Assembly: GCF_003544935.1 (NCBI RefSeq)
Contig: NZ_CP032098.1
Location: 1,984,001-2,048,000, forward strand
Direction: 5' to 3'
Source of the DNA: Malaciobacter molluscorum LMG 25693
GTDB taxonomy: Bacteria; Campylobacterota; Campylobacteria; Campylobacterales; Arcobacteraceae
Length of the DNA: 64,000 bases
A model generated the notes under the pieces. It did not search any database. It had not been told where the DNA came from and saw nothing but the letters and a program-made list of their open reading frames with translations. A program made the translations under genes and the position numbers. This document shows positions 11,943 to 19,890 of the stretch, one piece after another. Numbering within the stretch: the first letter of the stretch is position 1; every line of letters starts with the position of its first letter.

Positions 11943-12716
11943 CTAGGCTACATCTTCTCCATTATTTAAAATAATGAAGTTTTTAATATTATTTTTTGCA
12001 ATTTCTTCAACTTTTTGTAAAATTTCTCTATTATACTCATCACAAATTTCTATAATACATTTTTGATTAGAACTATAAAATAGCATATCGATACAATCAC
12101 CTAAATTATTTTTTTCAATATCTATTATAAATTTTTGCATTTGAGATATTTCATCATCTTTTTTATTTTGACTCTCATATAAAATAAAACTATTTTCTAG
12201 AATGATTTTTTCTTTTTCATTTTTTGTTTTTAAATATTTATATGAAATATTATTTTCGTCTAATAATTTTGTAGTAATAAAAATCATTTCATCAATATCA
12301 TTTTTTTCTAAATATTGTAATAAAGAAATTGTATCAATCACTAAAATATCTGCAAGGGCAGTAGTAAAAGGTGCTGATTCATAAACCCTTGAAAGACATA
12401 TATTTTTTGGCATCAATACTGGTATCAAGTTTTTTAACTCAATAAACTCTTTTTTTAGTTGTTTGATTTTGAATTCATCTAAAATATAAACTATTGAAGA
12501 TTTGTCGAAATCATTTTTTTGTGTGAATTCTATTTTAAACTCATTTACATAATTAGAATTCTCATCACAGTATTTTATTATTAAGTTATTATCAATGTCA
12601 TATCTATTATCTTTCTTTACAGATATAACTTCTACATTAATCATTTTTTCAAACTCATTTCTAATATTAAAATTAAAAATTTTAATGTAGTTTTCCAAAA
12701 CTTCATTAATACTCAT
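11943..12716 (-). CDS. Unknown cytoplasmic protein, 257 residues
   Basis: I do not recognise the family. It is acidic to neutral, Asn/Ile/Lys-rich, with no membrane segment or signal peptide. A conserved-looking core (LIPVLMPKNICLSRVYESAP) separates two alpha/beta halves, and FMN- or nucleotide-type motifs are absent. It is divergent from the 7TMR-DISM kinase, and the TGTGACG direct repeat at 12821-12839 is in the same orientation relative to this gene as the repeat before the acyltransferase, so it may belong to that regulon (inference). Confidence 0.7.
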   Translation of the reverse strand: MSINEVLENYIKIFNFNIRNEFEKMINVEVISVKKDNRYDIDNNLIIKYCDENSNYVNEFKIEFTQKNDFDKSSIVYILDEFKIKQLKKEFIELKNLIPVLMPKNICLSRVYESAPFTTALADILVIDTISLLQYLEKNDIDEMIFITTKLLDENNISYKYLKTKNEKEKIILENSFILYESQNKKDDEISQMQKFIIDIEKNNLGDCIDMLFYSSNQKCIIEICDEYNREILQKVEEIAKNNIKNFIILNNGEDVA

Positions 12717-12820
12717 AACTTCTCCCTAGTATTGATACAATAAACATAGATTAATAATAAAATCTAAGTACACTACCTGTGTTATAATTGCCATATAATT
12801 ATTATATTTTAATATTTGTG

Positions 12821-12839
12821 CGTCACAGTTTACGTCACA
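12821..12839 (-). promoter_or_regulatory. Direct repeat TGTGACG-N5-TGTGACG in divergent promoter region
   Basis: On the minus strand TGTGACG is repeated after five bases (12-bp period). It stands between the unknown gene (start 12716) and the 7TMR-DISM kinase (start 12911; -10 TATAAT at 12876-12881). The same repeat, TGTGACA-N5-TGTGACA, stands before the acyltransferase at 15579. Tandem half-sites about one helical turn apart are typical of OmpR-class regulators; the regulator encoded at 14745 is the likely binder. Confidence 0.55.
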
Positions 12840-12910: not shown

Positions 12911-14752
12911 ATGTACATAAAAAAAATTCTTTTTTCAATATTATTATTATCAATATATTTAAATGCAAATATTTTATCAATTACAAATAAAGTTCCTTTT
13001 AATGATATTCTTCCTAATAGTAAAATATATATTGATAAAACAAAAAGTTTAACAATCAATGAGATACAGCCTAAAAGTTTTAAAGATGTAAATGAAAAAT
13101 CTTTAGGTTATGGATATTCACCTAACTTTATCGTTTGGGTAAAATTTACATTAAAAAATAAAACAAATACAACAGTTAATAAAATATTAGAATATGACAA
13201 TGCTTTAACTACAAATATATATTTATACGAAAACAATAAACTAATAGCAAAAAAAGGTTTATCACATATAAAAAAACAAAGAAAAAGCATAAATCCAACT
13301 TTTGAAATTAAATTAAAACCTAATTCACAAAAAACATATTATATCCAAGCTTCTTCTTATATCACTACTTTAATTGTAAAATTAAATTTGTGGAATAGTG
13401 AAAACTTTTATGAAAAAGAGATTCAACATCAAGTTATATTAGCACTTTTTTTTGGAGGAATGTCAATACTTGGATTTTATAACCTATTTATATTCTTTTT
13501 TACAAAAGATAAAAGTTATTTCTATTATGTATTATATATATTTGGAATAATGATTCATCATTTAATGTATTCAGGTGTCACAAATATATATTTTTTACCA
13601 CATAATTGGGTTATGCCATTTATTCATTATGCTACATATATTGTTGGTTTTCCGGCTCTTGCACTTGCACTTTTTACAAAAAGTTTTTTAAATATAAAAA
13701 AATATAAAATTATAAATAAAACATTAAATATATATTTAGCTTTATTTCCTTTTTTATTAAGTCTATTTTTTATAACAGATAGTTTTAATAAATATAGAAA
13801 TATATTTTCTGTAATACTATTAATATATTTAGTAATTATTACTGTTTATACAAGTTTAAAAAGAAATAGACAAGCCTATTTTGTATTATTTGGGTGGTTT
13901 ATATTTTTAACAGCTGGAATGTTTATGTACCTGTCAAGTATAGGGATATTTAATGTTTTTATAGATTTTCCATATTATATAGAAACTTCTTTAATGCTTG
14001 AGGCTATTGTATTTTCTATTGCCCTAGCAGATAGAATAAAAGTATTACAAAAAGAAAAACAAGAAGCACAAAAAAAATTAATATTGCAACAAAAAAATGA
14101 GCAAAAAAGACTTCAAATAAAAGTAAATGAAAAAACAAGAGATTTAAAAAAAGCTTTAGATGAAAAAGGACTGTTATTAAAAGAATTAAATCATAGAGTA
14201 AAAAATAATATGCAAACAATTGTATCTTTAATAAGACTTCAAAGTGATGATATAAAAGATGAAAAATTAAAAGATGTATTAAAAACTATTAAAAATAGAA
14301 TTAAAGCTATGGGCCATTTACATGAATTACTATATAAACAAGATAATTTAGGAAATGTTGATACATATAAATACTTTGAAATTTTAATACAAGAAGTAAT
14401 GCAAAGTTATAATTGTAAAAATGTAAAAATTGATTTAAATGTCGAAACAAACTTAAAAATAGAAGAAGCTATATATTGTGGACTGATTGTAAATGAATTG
14501 ATCTCAAACTCTTTTAAATATGCATTTGATGATGTAAAAGAAGGAAAAATAAATATCAATCTTTATAAAACAAAAAATGAATATACATTAATTGTTGAAG
14601 ACAATGGAAAAGGTTATGATTCTTCAAAACCAACAAATTCATTAGGACTAATGCTTATTAATACATTGGCATGTAATCAATTAAAAGGGAAAATAACTAT
14701 CGATAATAAAGATAAAGTTTCAGTAAAAATAAATTGGAGAGATAATGAATAA
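12911..14752 (+). CDS. 7TMR-DISM sensor histidine kinase
   Basis: 613 residues. A signal peptide (about 1-20) leads to an extracytoplasmic beta-rich DISM domain (about 25-165), then seven hydrophobic helices (about 172-375), a coiled coil (375-420), a HisKA_2-type dimerisation helix with phospho-His H428 in KELNHRVKNNMQ, and an HATPase domain (NELISNSFKYAF, DNGKGYD, LGLMLI). DISM domains are thought to bind carbohydrates or other small ligands outside the cell. The gene overlaps the response regulator by 8 bases, so the two form a cognate pair. A -10 box lies at 12876. Confidence 0.9.
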   Translation: MYIKKILFSILLLSIYLNANILSITNKVPFNDILPNSKIYIDKTKSLTINEIQPKSFKDVNEKSLGYGYSPNFIVWVKFTLKNKTNTTVNKILEYDNALTTNIYLYENNKLIAKKGLSHIKKQRKSINPTFEIKLKPNSQKTYYIQASSYITTLIVKLNLWNSENFYEKEIQHQVILALFFGGMSILGFYNLFIFFFTKDKSYFYYVLYIFGIMIHHLMYSGVTNIYFLPHNWVMPFIHYATYIVGFPALALALFTKSFLNIKKYKIINKTLNIYLALFPFLLSLFFITDSFNKYRNIFSVILLIYLVIITVYTSLKRNRQAYFVLFGWFIFLTAGMFMYLSSIGIFNVFIDFPYYIETSLMLEAIVFSIALADRIKVLQKEKQEAQKKLILQQKNEQKRLQIKVNEKTRDLKKALDEKGLLLKELNHRVKNNMQTIVSLIRLQSDDIKDEKLKDVLKTIKNRIKAMGHLHELLYKQDNLGNVDTYKYFEILIQEVMQSYNCKNVKIDLNVETNLKIEEAIYCGLIVNELISNSFKYAFDDVKEGKININLYKTKNEYTLIVEDNGKGYDSSKPTNSLGLMLINTLACNQLKGKITIDNKDKVSVKINWRDNE

Positions 14753-15431
14753 TATAAAAATATTAATTTTAGAAGATAATACAATTGTAGGATTTGATAT
14801 AAAAAGAAGTGTTGAAGCACTTGGATATGAAGTTACAAAATGTGTAACTACTTATAATGAAGCATTAAATGCACAAGAACAAAATCCTGCTGATATAGCT
14901 ATAATGGATATTGATTTAGGTAAATATAGTAAAGATGGAATAGAAACAGCAAAAGATATACAAAAAATAAAATTTACTCCTATAATATTTTTAACTGCAT
15001 TTTCAGACAATGAAACAATGCAAAAAGCAATAAATGGTGATTTTATTGCTACATATATAACAAAACCCTATAATAGAGAATCAATTGCACCTGCTATTTT
15101 AGTAGCAAAATCAAGACTTAGAAATACTGATTTATTAAACAATAATTTAATAACATTAAAAAACAACTATATTTTTGATAAAAATAAAGAACTTTTATAT
15201 TATCAAAATGAACCAATAAAATTAAGTAAACAAGAAAGAAAACTATTTTCACTTTTAATTGCAGCTAAAGGTAATATTGTAGATTTTGAAAATATAGAAT
15301 ATGAAATCTGGCCAGATGGACCAGTATCAGATAGTTCTTTGAGAACTTTACTTTATAGAATAAGAAATAAAGTAAATTCAGAGATTATTGAAACTGTTCA
15401 ATCTTTTGGATGTAGAATAAATATAAAATAA
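14745..15431 (+). CDS. Response regulator, receiver plus winged helix, partner of the DISM kinase
   Basis: 228 residues. Receiver: E10/D11, phosphoacceptor D55 in AIMDIDLG, T84 and K107-P108. The C-terminal part (about 135-228, with LSKQERKLFSLLIAAKG and SSLRTLLYRIRNKV) is a Trans_reg_C winged helix. It overlaps the kinase gene by 8 bases. The acyltransferase gene follows after 209 bp carrying a direct repeat that also stands before the kinase, so the regulator probably controls both promoters (inference). Confidence 0.88.
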   Translation: MNNIKILILEDNTIVGFDIKRSVEALGYEVTKCVTTYNEALNAQEQNPADIAIMDIDLGKYSKDGIETAKDIQKIKFTPIIFLTAFSDNETMQKAINGDFIATYITKPYNRESIAPAILVAKSRLRNTDLLNNNLITLKNNYIFDKNKELLYYQNEPIKLSKQERKLFSLLIAAKGNIVDFENIEYEIWPDGPVSDSSLRTLLYRIRNKVNSEIIETVQSFGCRINIK

Positions 15432-15578
15432 TATATTCAATATACTCACTGCTTTTTTATTATTTAATTTATAACTCCTAGACACATAAGCATGTACTCT
15501 TTTTTAGAACTGTAACTTTTTAATTATTTTATACACTTAAAAATTATATTTATTATTTTATTGTTTATTATATAAAAA

Positions 15579-15597
15579 TGTGACAATTATTGTGACA
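15579..15597 (+). promoter_or_regulatory. Direct repeat TGTGACA-N5-TGTGACA before the acyltransferase
   Basis: Two identical 7-base half-sites, 12-bp period, end 43 bases upstream of the ATG at 15641. The half-site recurs once more, inverted and partial, as ATCACA at 15618-15623. The remaining intergenic stretch from 15432 is AT-rich with no ORF or clear terminator. Confidence 0.55.
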
Positions 15598-15640
15598 TTG
15601 TTGATTTAACATATTTATATCACAGATAAAGGATAAAAAT

Positions 15641-16399
15641 ATGTTTAACATAAATAAGAACAGCTCAGTAGAACAGTTACAGTTACTTCTTAAAAGTACA
15701 ATAAATAAATCATTAGATTATATGCCAAAAAGCTTTAATGATGAACAGTTAAAAGCATTTGATGTTTTCAAAAAAAGAATATATTTAGAAGAGATTATTG
15801 AAAAAAGTGTCTCTTTTAATAAAAGTTTAAATTTTGAAACAGAAAATAAAAATTTATATATAGTAAAAAATGTAGAAGAGTTAGTAAATATATTCAAATT
15901 AAGAAGTGAGATATATACTAGATTAAATTATAATAATGAATTTCCTGAAATTATTGAAGGACTAAATTTTGATAAATATGATGTCAATTCTGCAATTATA
16001 TATAATAAAACTGACAAATTAATAACAGGTACTTGTAGACTTATTTTTGATTCAGAAAAAAAATTACCAATTGAAGAAAAACTTGATCTTGATTATATAA
16101 GAGATGATTTTAATGCTATTGCAGAAGTATCAAGATTAACAATAAAACATCAAAAAGAAGGATTAAGTTTAGACTTTAAAAATTTAACTCAAGGAATTTA
16201 TGCAATATTAAAACAAAATAATCAAGATGCAACAATATCCGTAATAAGCAAAGAACACTTTAAATTATATTCAAAATTTGGTGGATTTAATATTGAAAAA
16301 GAGTTAAATTCATATGGACATTTAAATAAAACATTTGTAATAACATCTTGGGATATTTCTAAAATTTCAAAATTTTTCCAAAAAGCTTTTTTAAAGTAG
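15641..16399 (+). CDS. LuxI/FeeM-like GNAT-fold acyltransferase (autoinducer-synthase-like)
   Basis: 252 residues. After a helical N-terminal extension (1-70) comes a GNAT-type domain whose charged pattern follows the acyl-homoserine-lactone synthase/N-acyl amino acid synthase group: R88 in LRSEIYTRL, D111 and D114 in FDKYD, R133 in GTCRLIFD, E162 and R165 in AEVSRL, with IYN..DKLITG between. Such enzymes join a fatty acyl group from acyl-ACP to an amino compound. PEP-CTERM/exosortase-associated acyltransferases share the pattern and cannot be excluded. The product is unknown. RBS AAAGGATAAAAAT; preceded by the kinase/regulator pair and the TGTGACA repeat. Confidence 0.65.
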   Translation: MFNINKNSSVEQLQLLLKSTINKSLDYMPKSFNDEQLKAFDVFKKRIYLEEIIEKSVSFNKSLNFETENKNLYIVKNVEELVNIFKLRSEIYTRLNYNNEFPEIIEGLNFDKYDVNSAIIYNKTDKLITGTCRLIFDSEKKLPIEEKLDLDYIRDDFNAIAEVSRLTIKHQKEGLSLDFKNLTQGIYAILKQNNQDATISVISKEHFKLYSKFGGFNIEKELNSYGHLNKTFVITSWDISKISKFFQKAFLK

Positions 16400-16417
16400 T
16401 CAAAAGACTACTTTAAA
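16390..16417. terminator. Hairpin between acyltransferase and sbcC
   Basis: TTTAAAGTAGTC and GACTACTTTAAA pair perfectly over 12 bp with an AAAA loop and cover both convergent stop codons. The flanks give no long T tract. Confidence 0.5.
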
Positions 16418-18782
16418 GCTCAATAACACGTTCAAACATCTCTTTTATTTCTAACTCATGACTTATAAGAAATATTTGTCTATATTGCTCTTTAATTGTA
16501 TTAAAAGCCTCTAATATTTCCAGTCTTCTATTTTCATCTTGGCTTCCAAATACTTCATCAAAAGCTAAAAAAGATATTTGTGAACTACCACTTAATTCTT
16601 GTAAAGTTTTAGATATAGCTATTCTTAAAACTAAATTTGCTAAATCAATTTCTCCTCCACTAAATCTTTCTATTGGATATTTTCTATTTTCATCATAAAT
16701 AAAAAAATCAAAATCATTAGAGACTTCTATTAATTGATATTTACCTTTTGTAATTTTTGCATACATATTTGAAGCAATTTGAGATATTCTTGGTGCAATT
16801 TTTGAATTTATTGTAGTTTTAAAATCCTGTAAAGTAATTTTTATTTTTGTATAATCATTTAAGTCATCAATTTTCTTTTGTAAAATATTATTTTTATGAT
16901 TATTCTCATCTAACTGTTTCGTAATATTTTTTATCTCATTTTTAATTCTTGAATCTTCTAATTTTTTATCATGAATTAAATCAGATAAATCATCTTTTTG
17001 TTTTCTCATTTTTTCTATTTGTAATTGTAAATTTTTATGAGCTATTTCATCATATTTAATTGATTCAAACTCGATATTTCTATTTTTGATATTTGATTTT
17101 GAATTATCAATATTTTTTTCTTGTTCTTGTAGATTATTAATTATTGTCTTTTCTCTTTCAAGTTGAGTTTGTAAAGTTAAAAAATATTCATAATCTTTTC
17201 TAATTACTTCTAGTTTCTCTTTTAATAATTTGTGTTGCTTTTCATCATAAATATAAGAACTTAACTTATCTATTTGATCATTATTATTTTTACCTCTTAA
17301 TTTTATATCTTCCAAATAGTTTAAATTATTTGATAAATCTTTCTTCTTTTCATGTAATAAATATATTTTTGAATGAAGTTGTTTTTCTTTTTTGTTAGAT
17401 TCATCTAAAATAAGCTGCTTCTGATTTATTTCTTCTAATAATGTATTTAATTTAATATTATATTCTTCAATATTTTTTTTATAATTAGATTCTATTAAAT
17501 TATATAAATTATCTAATACCATGTCATAATCATCTAACAAATCTCTTGTACAAGTTGGACATTTAGAATTTTTACCTAATTTTTGTATTGTTTCTATTTT
17601 ATTTTTTGTATCATTAATTAGATTTTCTTCACCTGCAATTTTGTCTCTTAATTCTCTTTCTGTGATTTTTTTATCTTGTAACTGTTTTTGATAAATAATA
17701 ATATTTTCTTTTATTGAATTGTGTTCTTTTTCTATATTTGCTAATTGTTTTAATTGTTCTTCCAAATAAGAAATATCATCCTTTTGCTTTTTATATGAAA
17801 GTCTTAACTCATCTCTTTCTTTTATTAGTGCTTCTTTTTTAAGAAACTTTTCTTTTAAGATATCTTGTTCTTTTACTTTTGATAATAATTCTTCATATAA
17901 AATTTTTACATTCTTTACTTTTTCAAACTCTATTTTTTGTTTATTTAATAATTCTAATTCTTCTTTATATTTTTGCAAATTTTTTTTAAAAGACAAAAGA
18001 TTTGTTTCTTCAAGTTTTATACTATATTCTAAACTCTTTTTTTGTTCTTTTATTTTATTAAAAATTTCAAGTTCATCTCTTTTTTTATTCTCATTTTTAA
18101 TTAATTCTTCTTTTTTCTTTTCTTCAGCAAATATTTGCGAATTTAAAATCTTTAAATTATCATTATTGTATTTTAACTTTTTATTAAGTTCATCAACATC
18201 TTCAATACTTAAAAGATAAGATGAAAAATTTTTTATATCTCTATTTAAATCTCTAAGTGATAAAGTTAAAAAGTTTTCTACAAAATCAATTTTTTCTAAA
18301 CCAAGAAGTTTTCTTATCATTTTTTTTCGTTCTTCTTTATCTAAACCACTTAATTTAGTTAATTCTTTTTGAGAAGCAAATAACGTACTTAAAAAAGCCT
18401 CTTTATTCATCTTTGTTAATTTAATTATCTCTTTTGTTACTTCTTTTGCACCATTTGTTATTAGTTCAGCATTTTTAAATAATTTTGCATTAGCAATTAA
18501 ATTTTTACCTCTAAATTCTCTTGATACAATATATTCACAATTATCAAATTCAAAATACAATTTAACTTTTAACTCATCTTTTAATTCTGCACTTACATTT
18601 TTAATCAGTTCTTTAGAACCTTTATTTTTTAGTTCACCATATAAAGCAAATAATATTGCATCAAAGATAGTTGATTTTCCACTTCCATTTTTTCCAATAA
18701 TTCCTGTTAATCCATCAAAAAATTCAAAAGTAAACTCTTTATATTTTTTAAAGTTTTTTAAATACAATTTAGATAGTATCAT
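16413..18782 (-). CDS. sbcC: SbcC/Rad50-like exonuclease ATPase subunit
   Basis: 789 residues. N-terminal Walker A is GIIGKNGSGKSTIFDA; long coiled coils (about 170-380 and 430-640) flank the zinc hook CPTC (C408, C411); the C-terminus has the ABC signature FSGGE, Walker B (FLAFDEVFGSQD) and a switch His. Together with SbcD it opens hairpins and blocked double-strand ends in DNA. It is shorter than the E. coli protein (about 1,050) because the coiled coil is shorter, as in archaeal Rad50. Its start overlaps the sbcD end by 14 bases, so the two are coupled. Confidence 0.92.
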   Translation of the reverse strand: MILSKLYLKNFKKYKEFTFEFFDGLTGIIGKNGSGKSTIFDAILFALYGELKNKGSKELIKNVSAELKDELKVKLYFEFDNCEYIVSREFRGKNLIANAKLFKNAELITNGAKEVTKEIIKLTKMNKEAFLSTLFASQKELTKLSGLDKEERKKMIRKLLGLEKIDFVENFLTLSLRDLNRDIKNFSSYLLSIEDVDELNKKLKYNNDNLKILNSQIFAEEKKKEELIKNENKKRDELEIFNKIKEQKKSLEYSIKLEETNLLSFKKNLQKYKEELELLNKQKIEFEKVKNVKILYEELLSKVKEQDILKEKFLKKEALIKERDELRLSYKKQKDDISYLEEQLKQLANIEKEHNSIKENIIIYQKQLQDKKITERELRDKIAGEENLINDTKNKIETIQKLGKNSKCPTCTRDLLDDYDMVLDNLYNLIESNYKKNIEEYNIKLNTLLEEINQKQLILDESNKKEKQLHSKIYLLHEKKKDLSNNLNYLEDIKLRGKNNNDQIDKLSSYIYDEKQHKLLKEKLEVIRKDYEYFLTLQTQLEREKTIINNLQEQEKNIDNSKSNIKNRNIEFESIKYDEIAHKNLQLQIEKMRKQKDDLSDLIHDKKLEDSRIKNEIKNITKQLDENNHKNNILQKKIDDLNDYTKIKITLQDFKTTINSKIAPRISQIASNMYAKITKGKYQLIEVSNDFDFFIYDENRKYPIERFSGGEIDLANLVLRIAISKTLQELSGSSQISFLAFDEVFGSQDENRRLEILEAFNTIKEQYRQIFLISHELEIKEMFERVIEL

Positions 18783-19890
18783 CTATACTATCCTCATATT
18801 TATCAAATAATTCATCTGTTTTTAATTTTAATCTATTAAATTCATGTTCTAAACTATTTTGTTTTAAATATTCCGTGAAATACTCTTTTAAAGAAATTGA
18901 TTGAATATCTTCAAGTGTAGCTTCATTTTGAGATATAAATTCCCTTTTTATTACAAGATAAAAGCAAGATGGCAAATAACTTTTAATCTCTTTATTAGAG
19001 ATATTTATAGAATCCATTATATTTAAATTTTTTATTGTTAACTGAACTATACAATTTTCTAAAGTATTATTTTTATTTATATTTTCTAACTGGTTAAATA
19101 TATCATTTGCATCAATTTCAAAACTTAAAAATTCTCTTACATTAATTTGTTTAAATTCAATGATTAAATCATCGTTTGATAAATCTAAGTATATAAATCC
19201 CTTATTATTTCTTTTATCATTAAATGATGTTCTTTCACTACTTCCACTATAATATACATTTTCATAACTTTTTACATTTGAAAAACCATGCCAATGTCCT
19301 AATGCAACATAATCCATAATATTAAATAGAAACTCTTTTTCCTGGGGGAAAACAAATTCTCCAAATTCACTCATTAAATAGCTAGCTCCAACGCTACAAT
19401 GAAGCATCAATACATTTTTTTTATTAGGATTTATACTATTTTCAATATTTACTAATTCATTATCAATACAATTTTCATCATTTAAATGCGGTAATGCATG
19501 AAAAATAATATTATCAAATTCAAACATTTCATATTTATTTTTATATGCACAATAGATATTTTCAAAACCATCAAATATTGAAAGAATAGGTAAAGAACTC
19601 TTAGTTCTTGGAGTAGAATGATTACCTGCAATAATAATAATTGGAATATCTAATTCATTAAGTTTCTTTAACCTATCTAATGCAAAAGAGATAGCCCTAT
19701 TAGATGGGCTACTTCTATGAAATAAATCACCTGTATGAATAATATAATCAGGGGATAACTTTATAATATTATCAACAATAGAATCAAAAGCAGAATAAAA
19801 ATCAGCTTCTCTTTGATTTATTCCATCTTCATTAATTATATCCAAATCATTAAAACCTAAATGTGTATCACTAAAATGTATAATTTTCAA
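18769..19890 (-). CDS. sbcD: SbcD/Mre11-like nuclease subunit
   Basis: 373 residues. The calcineurin-like phosphoesterase motifs are all present: SDTHLGF (D8, H10), HTGDLFHR, AGNHSTPR, LHCS and GHWHG, which bind two Mn2+ ions; a C-terminal region binds the SbcC coiled coil. Acts as the nuclease of the SbcCD repair complex. First gene of the sbcDC operon, reading away from the small membrane-peptide gene on the other strand. Confidence 0.92.
   Translation of the reverse strand: MKIIHFSDTHLGFNDLDIINEDGINQREADFYSAFDSIVDNIIKLSPDYIIHTGDLFHRSSPSNRAISFALDRLKKLNELDIPIIIIAGNHSTPRTKSSLPILSIFDGFENIYCAYKNKYEMFEFDNIIFHALPHLNDENCIDNELVNIENSINPNKKNVLMLHCSVGASYLMSEFGEFVFPQEKEFLFNIMDYVALGHWHGFSNVKSYENVYYSGSSERTSFNDKRNNKGFIYLDLSNDDLIIEFKQINVREFLSFEIDANDIFNQLENINKNNTLENCIVQLTIKNLNIMDSINISNKEIKSYLPSCFYLVIKREFISQNEATLEDIQSISLKEYFTEYLKQNSLEHEFNRLKLKTDELFDKYEDSIDDTI

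Follow-up and report, generated by a model that had tools for sequence, protein, structure and literature searches.

The stretch of DNA analyzed here (the window) comprises 64,000 nucleotides of Malaciobacter molluscorum LMG 25693 (NZ_CP032098.1, positions 1,984,001 to 2,048,000) and contains a module of three genes encoding a 7TMR-DISM sensor histidine kinase, an OmpR/PhoB-type response regulator (RR) and a predicted FeeM/LuxI-fold N-acyltransferase, hereafter the enzyme (Table 1). The three open reading frames (ORFs), the 8-base overlap of the kinase and RR genes and the 209-bp gap before the enzyme gene are as an earlier, sequence-only reading of this DNA had described them, and its identification of a DISM kinase and a winged-helix regulator is borne out by Pfam domains above cut-off. 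The HisKA_2 motif residue H428 of the kinase was invariant in all 19 aligned orthologs. The RR consists of a REC domain and a winged-helix DNA-binding domain and is encoded beside a histidine kinase, which places it in the OmpR/PhoB class.

Table 1. Genes and promoter elements of the module and its divergent neighbour (window positions).
Feature	Position	Strand	Basis or remark
7TMR-DISM sensor histidine kinase, 613 aa	12911..14752	+	Pfam 7TMR-DISMED2, 7TMR-DISM_7TM, HisKA_2 and HATPase_c above cut-off
OmpR/PhoB-type RR, 228 aa	14745..15431	+	Pfam Response_reg and Trans_reg_C; ortholog adjoins kinase in relatives
FeeM/LuxI-fold N-acyltransferase, 252 aa, with N-terminal helical extension	15641..16399	+	Pfam FeeM, AlphaFold2 model, fold matches
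Direct repeat, proposed RR site	15579..15596	+	62 nt before the acyltransferase start
−10-like TAACAT	15607..15612	+	Exactly 10 nt past the enzyme's repeat
Second perfect repeat	12822..12839	−	Directed away from the kinase, to the divergent gene
−10-like TAAAAT	12806..12811	−	Exactly 10 nt past the divergent gene's repeat
Divergent gene, 257 aa, predicted RR target	11943..12716	−	No Pfam above cut-off, no NCBIfam match

In profile searches, the enzyme scored 56.5 bits against Pfam FeeM (PF21926), passing the curated family cut-off of 27, and was the single FeeM match in the whole genome at E 1; a LuxI-family search of the same genome at E 1 gave no match. The score against Acetyltransf_5 was under cut-off (16.8 bits; cut-off 22.4), and two further family calls were rejected, namely LuxI (PF00765; Autoind_synth 13.8 bits, cut-off 24) and the PEP-CTERM/exosortase acyltransferases (TIGR03694, exosort_acyl; 31.9 bits, cut-off 111.95). 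The sequence-only reading had likened the protein to acyl-homoserine lactone (AHL) and N-acyl amino acid synthases, and the profiles assign it to FeeM, with the Autoind_synth and PEP-CTERM models under cut-off. A search of the PDB with the single protein sequence returned three weak, unrelated matches and was set aside; a profile search of the PDB found FeeM at E 3.5e-4. The AlphaFold2 model of the enzyme was good (predicted local distance difference test, pLDDT, 88.3). Foldseek with this model placed FeeM (2G0B) at ranks 1 to 5, followed by LasI, and in structural comparison FeeM again came first (Z 18.4, 171 aligned, root-mean-square deviation 3.1), with RpaI at 17.7, MesI at 16.8, LasI at 16.7 and TofI at 16.1. 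The six charged residues named in the sequence-only reading (R88, D111, D114, R133, E162 and R165) were invariant in 22 of 22 relatives, as was S164; in a second set of 24 relatives, R133 and S164 were conserved at 90% or more. The order and spacing of the charged residues are those of the LuxI signature. Residues ~1–67 (window 15641-15841) form a helical extension beyond the FeeM and LuxI matches. The FeeM copies of two other genomes (G373 and G444) contain a stop inside the matched stretch.

The third protein might instead be an ordinary acetyl-CoA-dependent GNAT devoid of lipid chemistry, given that many plain GNATs match the fold and that the best of them reached Z 15.9, level with the lowest AHL synthases. 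We regard this as extremely improbable, because the FeeM profile score is twice the cut-off, FeeM, RpaI, MesI, LasI and BjaI head the structural list (Z 18.4 to 16.6) and the charged residues are invariant. The closest predicted folds being FeeM and the AHL synthases, the model supports membership of the enzyme in the FeeM/LuxI fold group. By its predicted chemistry, the enzyme should acylate an amine with a fatty acyl chain, which would yield an acylated small molecule.

The conservation of the module was analyzed in 397 Campylobacterota genomes and, at the family level, in 104 Arcobacteraceae. FeeM scored above cut-off in 25 of the 397 genomes, and the kinase gene adjoined the best FeeM match in 22 of them, the exceptions being G209, G074 and G165, the last of which carries kinase and RR 31 kb off. 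Among the Arcobacteraceae (thresholds of 1e-80 for the kinase and 1e-15 for the enzyme), the kinase matched in 55 and the enzyme in 41 genomes, all 41 lying within the 55; read from coordinates, the two genes were adjacent in 40 of the 41 (exception, G418). Forty-six Arcobacteraceae have a kinase match of ~410 bits or more, and 41 of these have the enzyme; the nine further matches, at 276-344 bits, we take to be probable paralogs. With these nine counted as kinase-negative, kinase and enzyme co-occurred with a Fisher p of 9e-24. The expectation that the three genes would stay together is thus upheld by synteny across the family, where every enzyme genome (41/41) also has the kinase. Grouping of the enzyme with unrelated GNATs and dispersal of the trio had been named beforehand as the outcomes that would speak against such a signalling system, and neither occurred.

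A separate scan with two short peptide patterns, which detects near relatives only, yielded 32 named loci, all of them Campylobacterota or labelled as metagenome-assembled genomes; the kinase was present in 27, and some of the remaining loci end at contig ends. Enzyme relatives were found in Arcobacter sp. CECT 8985 (76%) and Malaciobacter halophilus (69%), as well as in records bearing the names Sulfurospirillum, Sulfurimonas, Sulfuricurvum and Nitratifractor. The enzyme is also encoded on six Aliarcobacter and Arcobacter plasmids, where each copy is annotated as a hypothetical protein. For one of these, MK715471, a table in PMC6690266 lists a DISM kinase and a response regulator. In many relatives the acyltransferase is followed by the gene of a second, similar response regulator, which often has a box to itself (the repeat described below), a possible cascade (L040-L042, L044-L046, L241, L244, L245, L248, L249, L251, L253, L254).

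The box is the direct repeat TGTGAC-N6-TGTGAC, and together with a −10-like element at fixed distance it forms the joint pattern TGTGAC-N6-TGTGAC-N10-TANNNT. The 2.8-Mb genome contains three perfect repeats: two lie in this cluster, and the third precedes a DUF6414 gene near an ORF that by eye is integrase-like. A site with two mismatches at 814590, in or beside a 636-aa ORF and with no clear target, was set aside. A direct repeat that replaces the −35 element is the geometry of PhoB-type activation. At 24 loci the best-matching box in the 400 nt upstream of FeeM was perfect in 14 cases, had one mismatch in 4 and two mismatches in 2, mostly 55-64 nt from the start; one further locus was unscorable. 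The plain repeat was found in 55 of the 397 genomes (22/25 with FeeM and 33/372 others). As it was no commoner than its reversed control, the matches of which fell mostly in six genomes, it was dropped as a count and weight was placed on the joint pattern with the −10. This pattern had 109 sites in 32 genomes, versus 3 in the reversed control, and occurred in 21 of the 25 FeeM genomes as opposed to 11 of the 372 others (p 3e-23). In FeeM genomes, TANNNT stood exactly 10 nt after the repeat at 25/29 module-locus sites and 59/62 other fetched sites, compared with 1/14 sites sampled from FeeM-negative genomes. The proportion of sites within genes was 1/29, 2/62 and 10/14, respectively. By whole counts, the repeat was followed by a −10 in 91/101 cases in FeeM genomes versus 18/48 elsewhere (p 5e-11).

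To which gene of the module the box belongs is indicated by the genomes in which RR and FeeM are separated (RR co-occurrence was assessed without G304, G342, G356 and G378). G209 and G074 have FeeM and lack both a strong RR match and the box. Conversely, G030 and G345 lack FeeM and have kinase and RR, and immediately downstream of the RR a perfect box precedes a lipoprotein-like gene; at the sites fetched on purpose from these two genomes, the −10 was present in 4/4 and none (0/4) lay within a gene. G325, which supplied the only FeeM-negative sampled site with a −10, has an RR homolog of 137 bits. In G325, G265 and G331, boxes occur alongside a kinase and an RR of 121-137 bits, scores that lie within the range of paralogs as well. 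The box thus tracks the RR and not FeeM. Since it accompanies the RR even where FeeM is absent, the enzyme appears to be controlled by the two-component system, the existence of which does not require it. We read the box as the predicted activating site of the RR. That the repeat serves a different regulator and lies near the cluster by chance is, in our opinion, very unlikely. TGTGA does resemble a CRP half-site, the boxes of G056 and G146 are accompanied by no more than weak RR matches, and binding by the RR is itself a prediction; however, the repeat is direct rather than inverted, two of the three perfect copies in 2.8 Mb fall in this cluster, and the box accompanies the RR ortholog independently of FeeM.

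The sequence-only reading had further proposed that an acylated signal is made under, and perhaps sensed by, the two-component pathway. The common, rigid promoter lends good support to the first part, whereas the second is weakened by five Arcobacteraceae in which the kinase ortholog is present and the enzyme absent (G400, G008, G345, G030 and G322). The same observations bear on a quorum-type loop, in which the product of the enzyme would be the ligand of the DISM kinase and would close a positive feedback that also induces defence at high density or upon lysis of neighbours. The near-obligate linkage (enzyme in 41 of the 46 genomes with the stronger kinase matches) and an RR box before the enzyme would suit such a synthase–receptor pair, but the five kinase-only genomes argue against obligate pairing, G030 and G345 place a lipoprotein-like gene in the enzyme's slot, and DISMED2 is given as carbohydrate-binding in a table of PMC6690266; we consider the loop unlikely. 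The enzyme appears to be one of several outputs of the system.

Boxes elsewhere indicate what the other outputs might be. Known anti-phage genes stand behind several of them: Hachiman HamA (198 bits) and a piece of HamB in G393, the whole IetAS pair (IetA 280 bits, IetS 162 bits) in G390, Old (267 bits) in G303, GmrSD in G373, and SIR2-TPR, TIR and AbiZ-like DUF6161 proteins in G329. In G373 a complete Gabija system also lies beside the FeeM module (L043:8659-12520; GajA 599 bits, GajB 878 bits), with a box 306 nt upstream. SbcCD-like genes, identified partly by eye, follow boxes in G303 and G291 with a −10 and in G395 without one, and two Tle1-like phospholipases, ShlB, an outer-membrane channel, LprI and DUF5625 proteins are likewise encoded behind boxes. 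The window genome has a HamA-like/HamB-like operon with a one-mismatch site ~390 nt upstream; HamB of this operon scored 138 bits and its partner matched no PADLOC model; a search for HamA at 1e-10 in this genome gave no match. The sister genome G255 has an 84%-identical promoter and leader followed by a different operon, which includes a deoxyribosyltransferase gene. A common promoter and leader before different operons indicates that the cargo varies behind the box.

We compared 52 box-downstream proteins with controls using PADLOC. At 1e-5 the 52 proteins matched 161 families and 52 module neighbours matched 94; this threshold was not used as a test, as the matches include many generic helicase and ATPase models. 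The neighbour control contained GajB, itself behind a box, and a second control of 80 proteins from the same loci but not behind a box was therefore drawn. At 1e-20, at least 8 of the 52, as judged from 25 of the 34 families matched, versus at most 3 of the 80 gave a match (p 0.025). HamA occurred in 29 of the 397 genomes, of which three have FeeM (30 of 32 places examined), and a HamA-centred test was judged too small for use. Overall the enrichment in defence genes is weak (p 0.02 to 0.15), and the theme is suggestive.

A 1460-aa protein directly behind a box in G329 (L163:6651-11030) has no Pfam or PADLOC match and is a candidate new defence gene. The variable cargo defines a hotspot behind the RR box at L063:5695-6331 in the window genome and L105:3400-3950 in G255; in the former, the leader (L063:5860-5960) contains two copies of a ~31-bp direct repeat ~35 bp apart, CRISPR-like by eye, which sit between the box and the HamA-like gene. 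Within the window, the divergent gene has clear relatives only within the same genus among the fetched stretches, and its AlphaFold2 model (pLDDT 54) was too poor for a fold search. Convergent to the acyltransferase are genes that by eye are SbcC/SbcD-like (16413-19890).

Computation establishes the gene identities, their linkage, the common promoter and the fact that this promoter co-occurs with the RR, and we propose the following mechanism to account for them. The DISM sensor kinase would phosphorylate the RR, which would bind the direct repeat (period 12 bp) that occupies the −35 region, thereby activating a σ70-type promoter as PhoB does. The enzyme would be one of the most constant targets of the RR, the others being variable between genomes and largely accessory, with anti-phage, antagonism and envelope functions and many members of no known family. 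The whole would constitute a danger or competition response, with the acylated product (a defensive lipid, a surfactant or an alarm) as an output. We consider this chain, from kinase through RR and box to enzyme and accessory genes, to be probably correct. An extension to an immune regulon gated by quorum or danger, in which the product is an alarm sensed by the DISM kinase either of the producing cell or of its neighbours, so that the RR switches on the box-linked anti-phage and anti-competitor systems of that genome, including the hotspot cargo, is a more speculative and rather improbable scenario.

Several observations count against this interpretation. The promoter of the window kinase itself lacks a box in activating orientation; before FeeM, the box was imperfect or absent at 10 of the 24 loci, and a perfect box with its −10 was scored in 12 of the 32 named loci. 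Over the 397 genomes the plain repeat had ~149 real and ~133 reversed matches. Regarding defence, the 52 proteins were hand-picked when Pfam results for some were already known, and with SbcC and the one-mismatch operon left out the p value of the enrichment rises to 0.15. Most box targets have no known family (at least 16 of the first genes scanned gave no Pfam family), and in the fetched stretches one of the three HamA genes of FeeM genomes has a box.

The same targets would also fit an envelope-stress system, in which the kinase senses damage to the wall or outer membrane, the envelope is remodelled by an amino-acid-containing membrane lipid or precursor from the enzyme, and the defence genes are passengers. 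DUF5625 proteins, LprI, the outer-membrane channel and ShlB are among the targets, as are lipoproteins and a stomatin/NfeD-like operon recognized by eye, and lipoprotein-like genes follow the box in the FeeM-negative G030 and G345. However, Gabija, IetAS and Hachiman genes also stand behind boxes, and we regard envelope stress as a possible but somewhat unlikely explanation. Under the danger or competition response that we favour, one promoter pattern provides a handle on an apparently undescribed Campylobacterota regulon that joins a lipid-signal-type enzyme to anti-phage and competition genes; no publication on this regulon was found among the matches listed in the open-licence PubMed Central literature. 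On the question of when bacteria express their defence systems, the present analysis offers testable predictions of a switch, of the site it uses and of the genes it controls.

Compared with known systems, the enzyme is closest to the FeeM/Nas N-acyl amino acid synthases (PF21926, PDB 2G0B), as judged by the profile score above cut-off and the top fold match. It differs from them in its N-terminal helical extension, in its position beside and, by our proposal, under a two-component system, and in E-x-S-R at positions 162-165, a motif as in LuxI, where 2G0B shows Q and F in the alignment. No gene for an acyl carrier protein or PEP-CTERM protein was noticed beside the enzyme, no dedicated search having been made. 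With the LuxI-type AHL synthases (LasI, EsaI, RpaI, BjaI) it shares the fold and the pattern and spacing of charged residues, whereas Autoind_synth is under cut-off and none of the three module genes encodes a LuxR protein (LuxR receptors were not searched for). The regulatory part resembles PhoR/PhoB in its OmpR-type RR and in a direct repeat ending ~10 nt before the −10, and differs in the period of 12, the repeat sequence and the DISM/HisKA_2 kinase. RetS and LadS are DISM kinases of the Gac/Rsm pathway. In Pseudomonas, the Gac/Rsm pathway is reported to govern species-variable antagonism and anti-phage genes, including those for secondary metabolites (PMC11888443). The Gac/Rsm danger response would be the closest functional analogue; here too, as proposed, a single pathway would stand over antagonism and anti-phage genes that vary between species. 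The system proposed here would act through a DNA-binding regulator and a promoter box instead of small RNAs and Rsm, with kinase and regulator of different types and in a Campylobacterota host.

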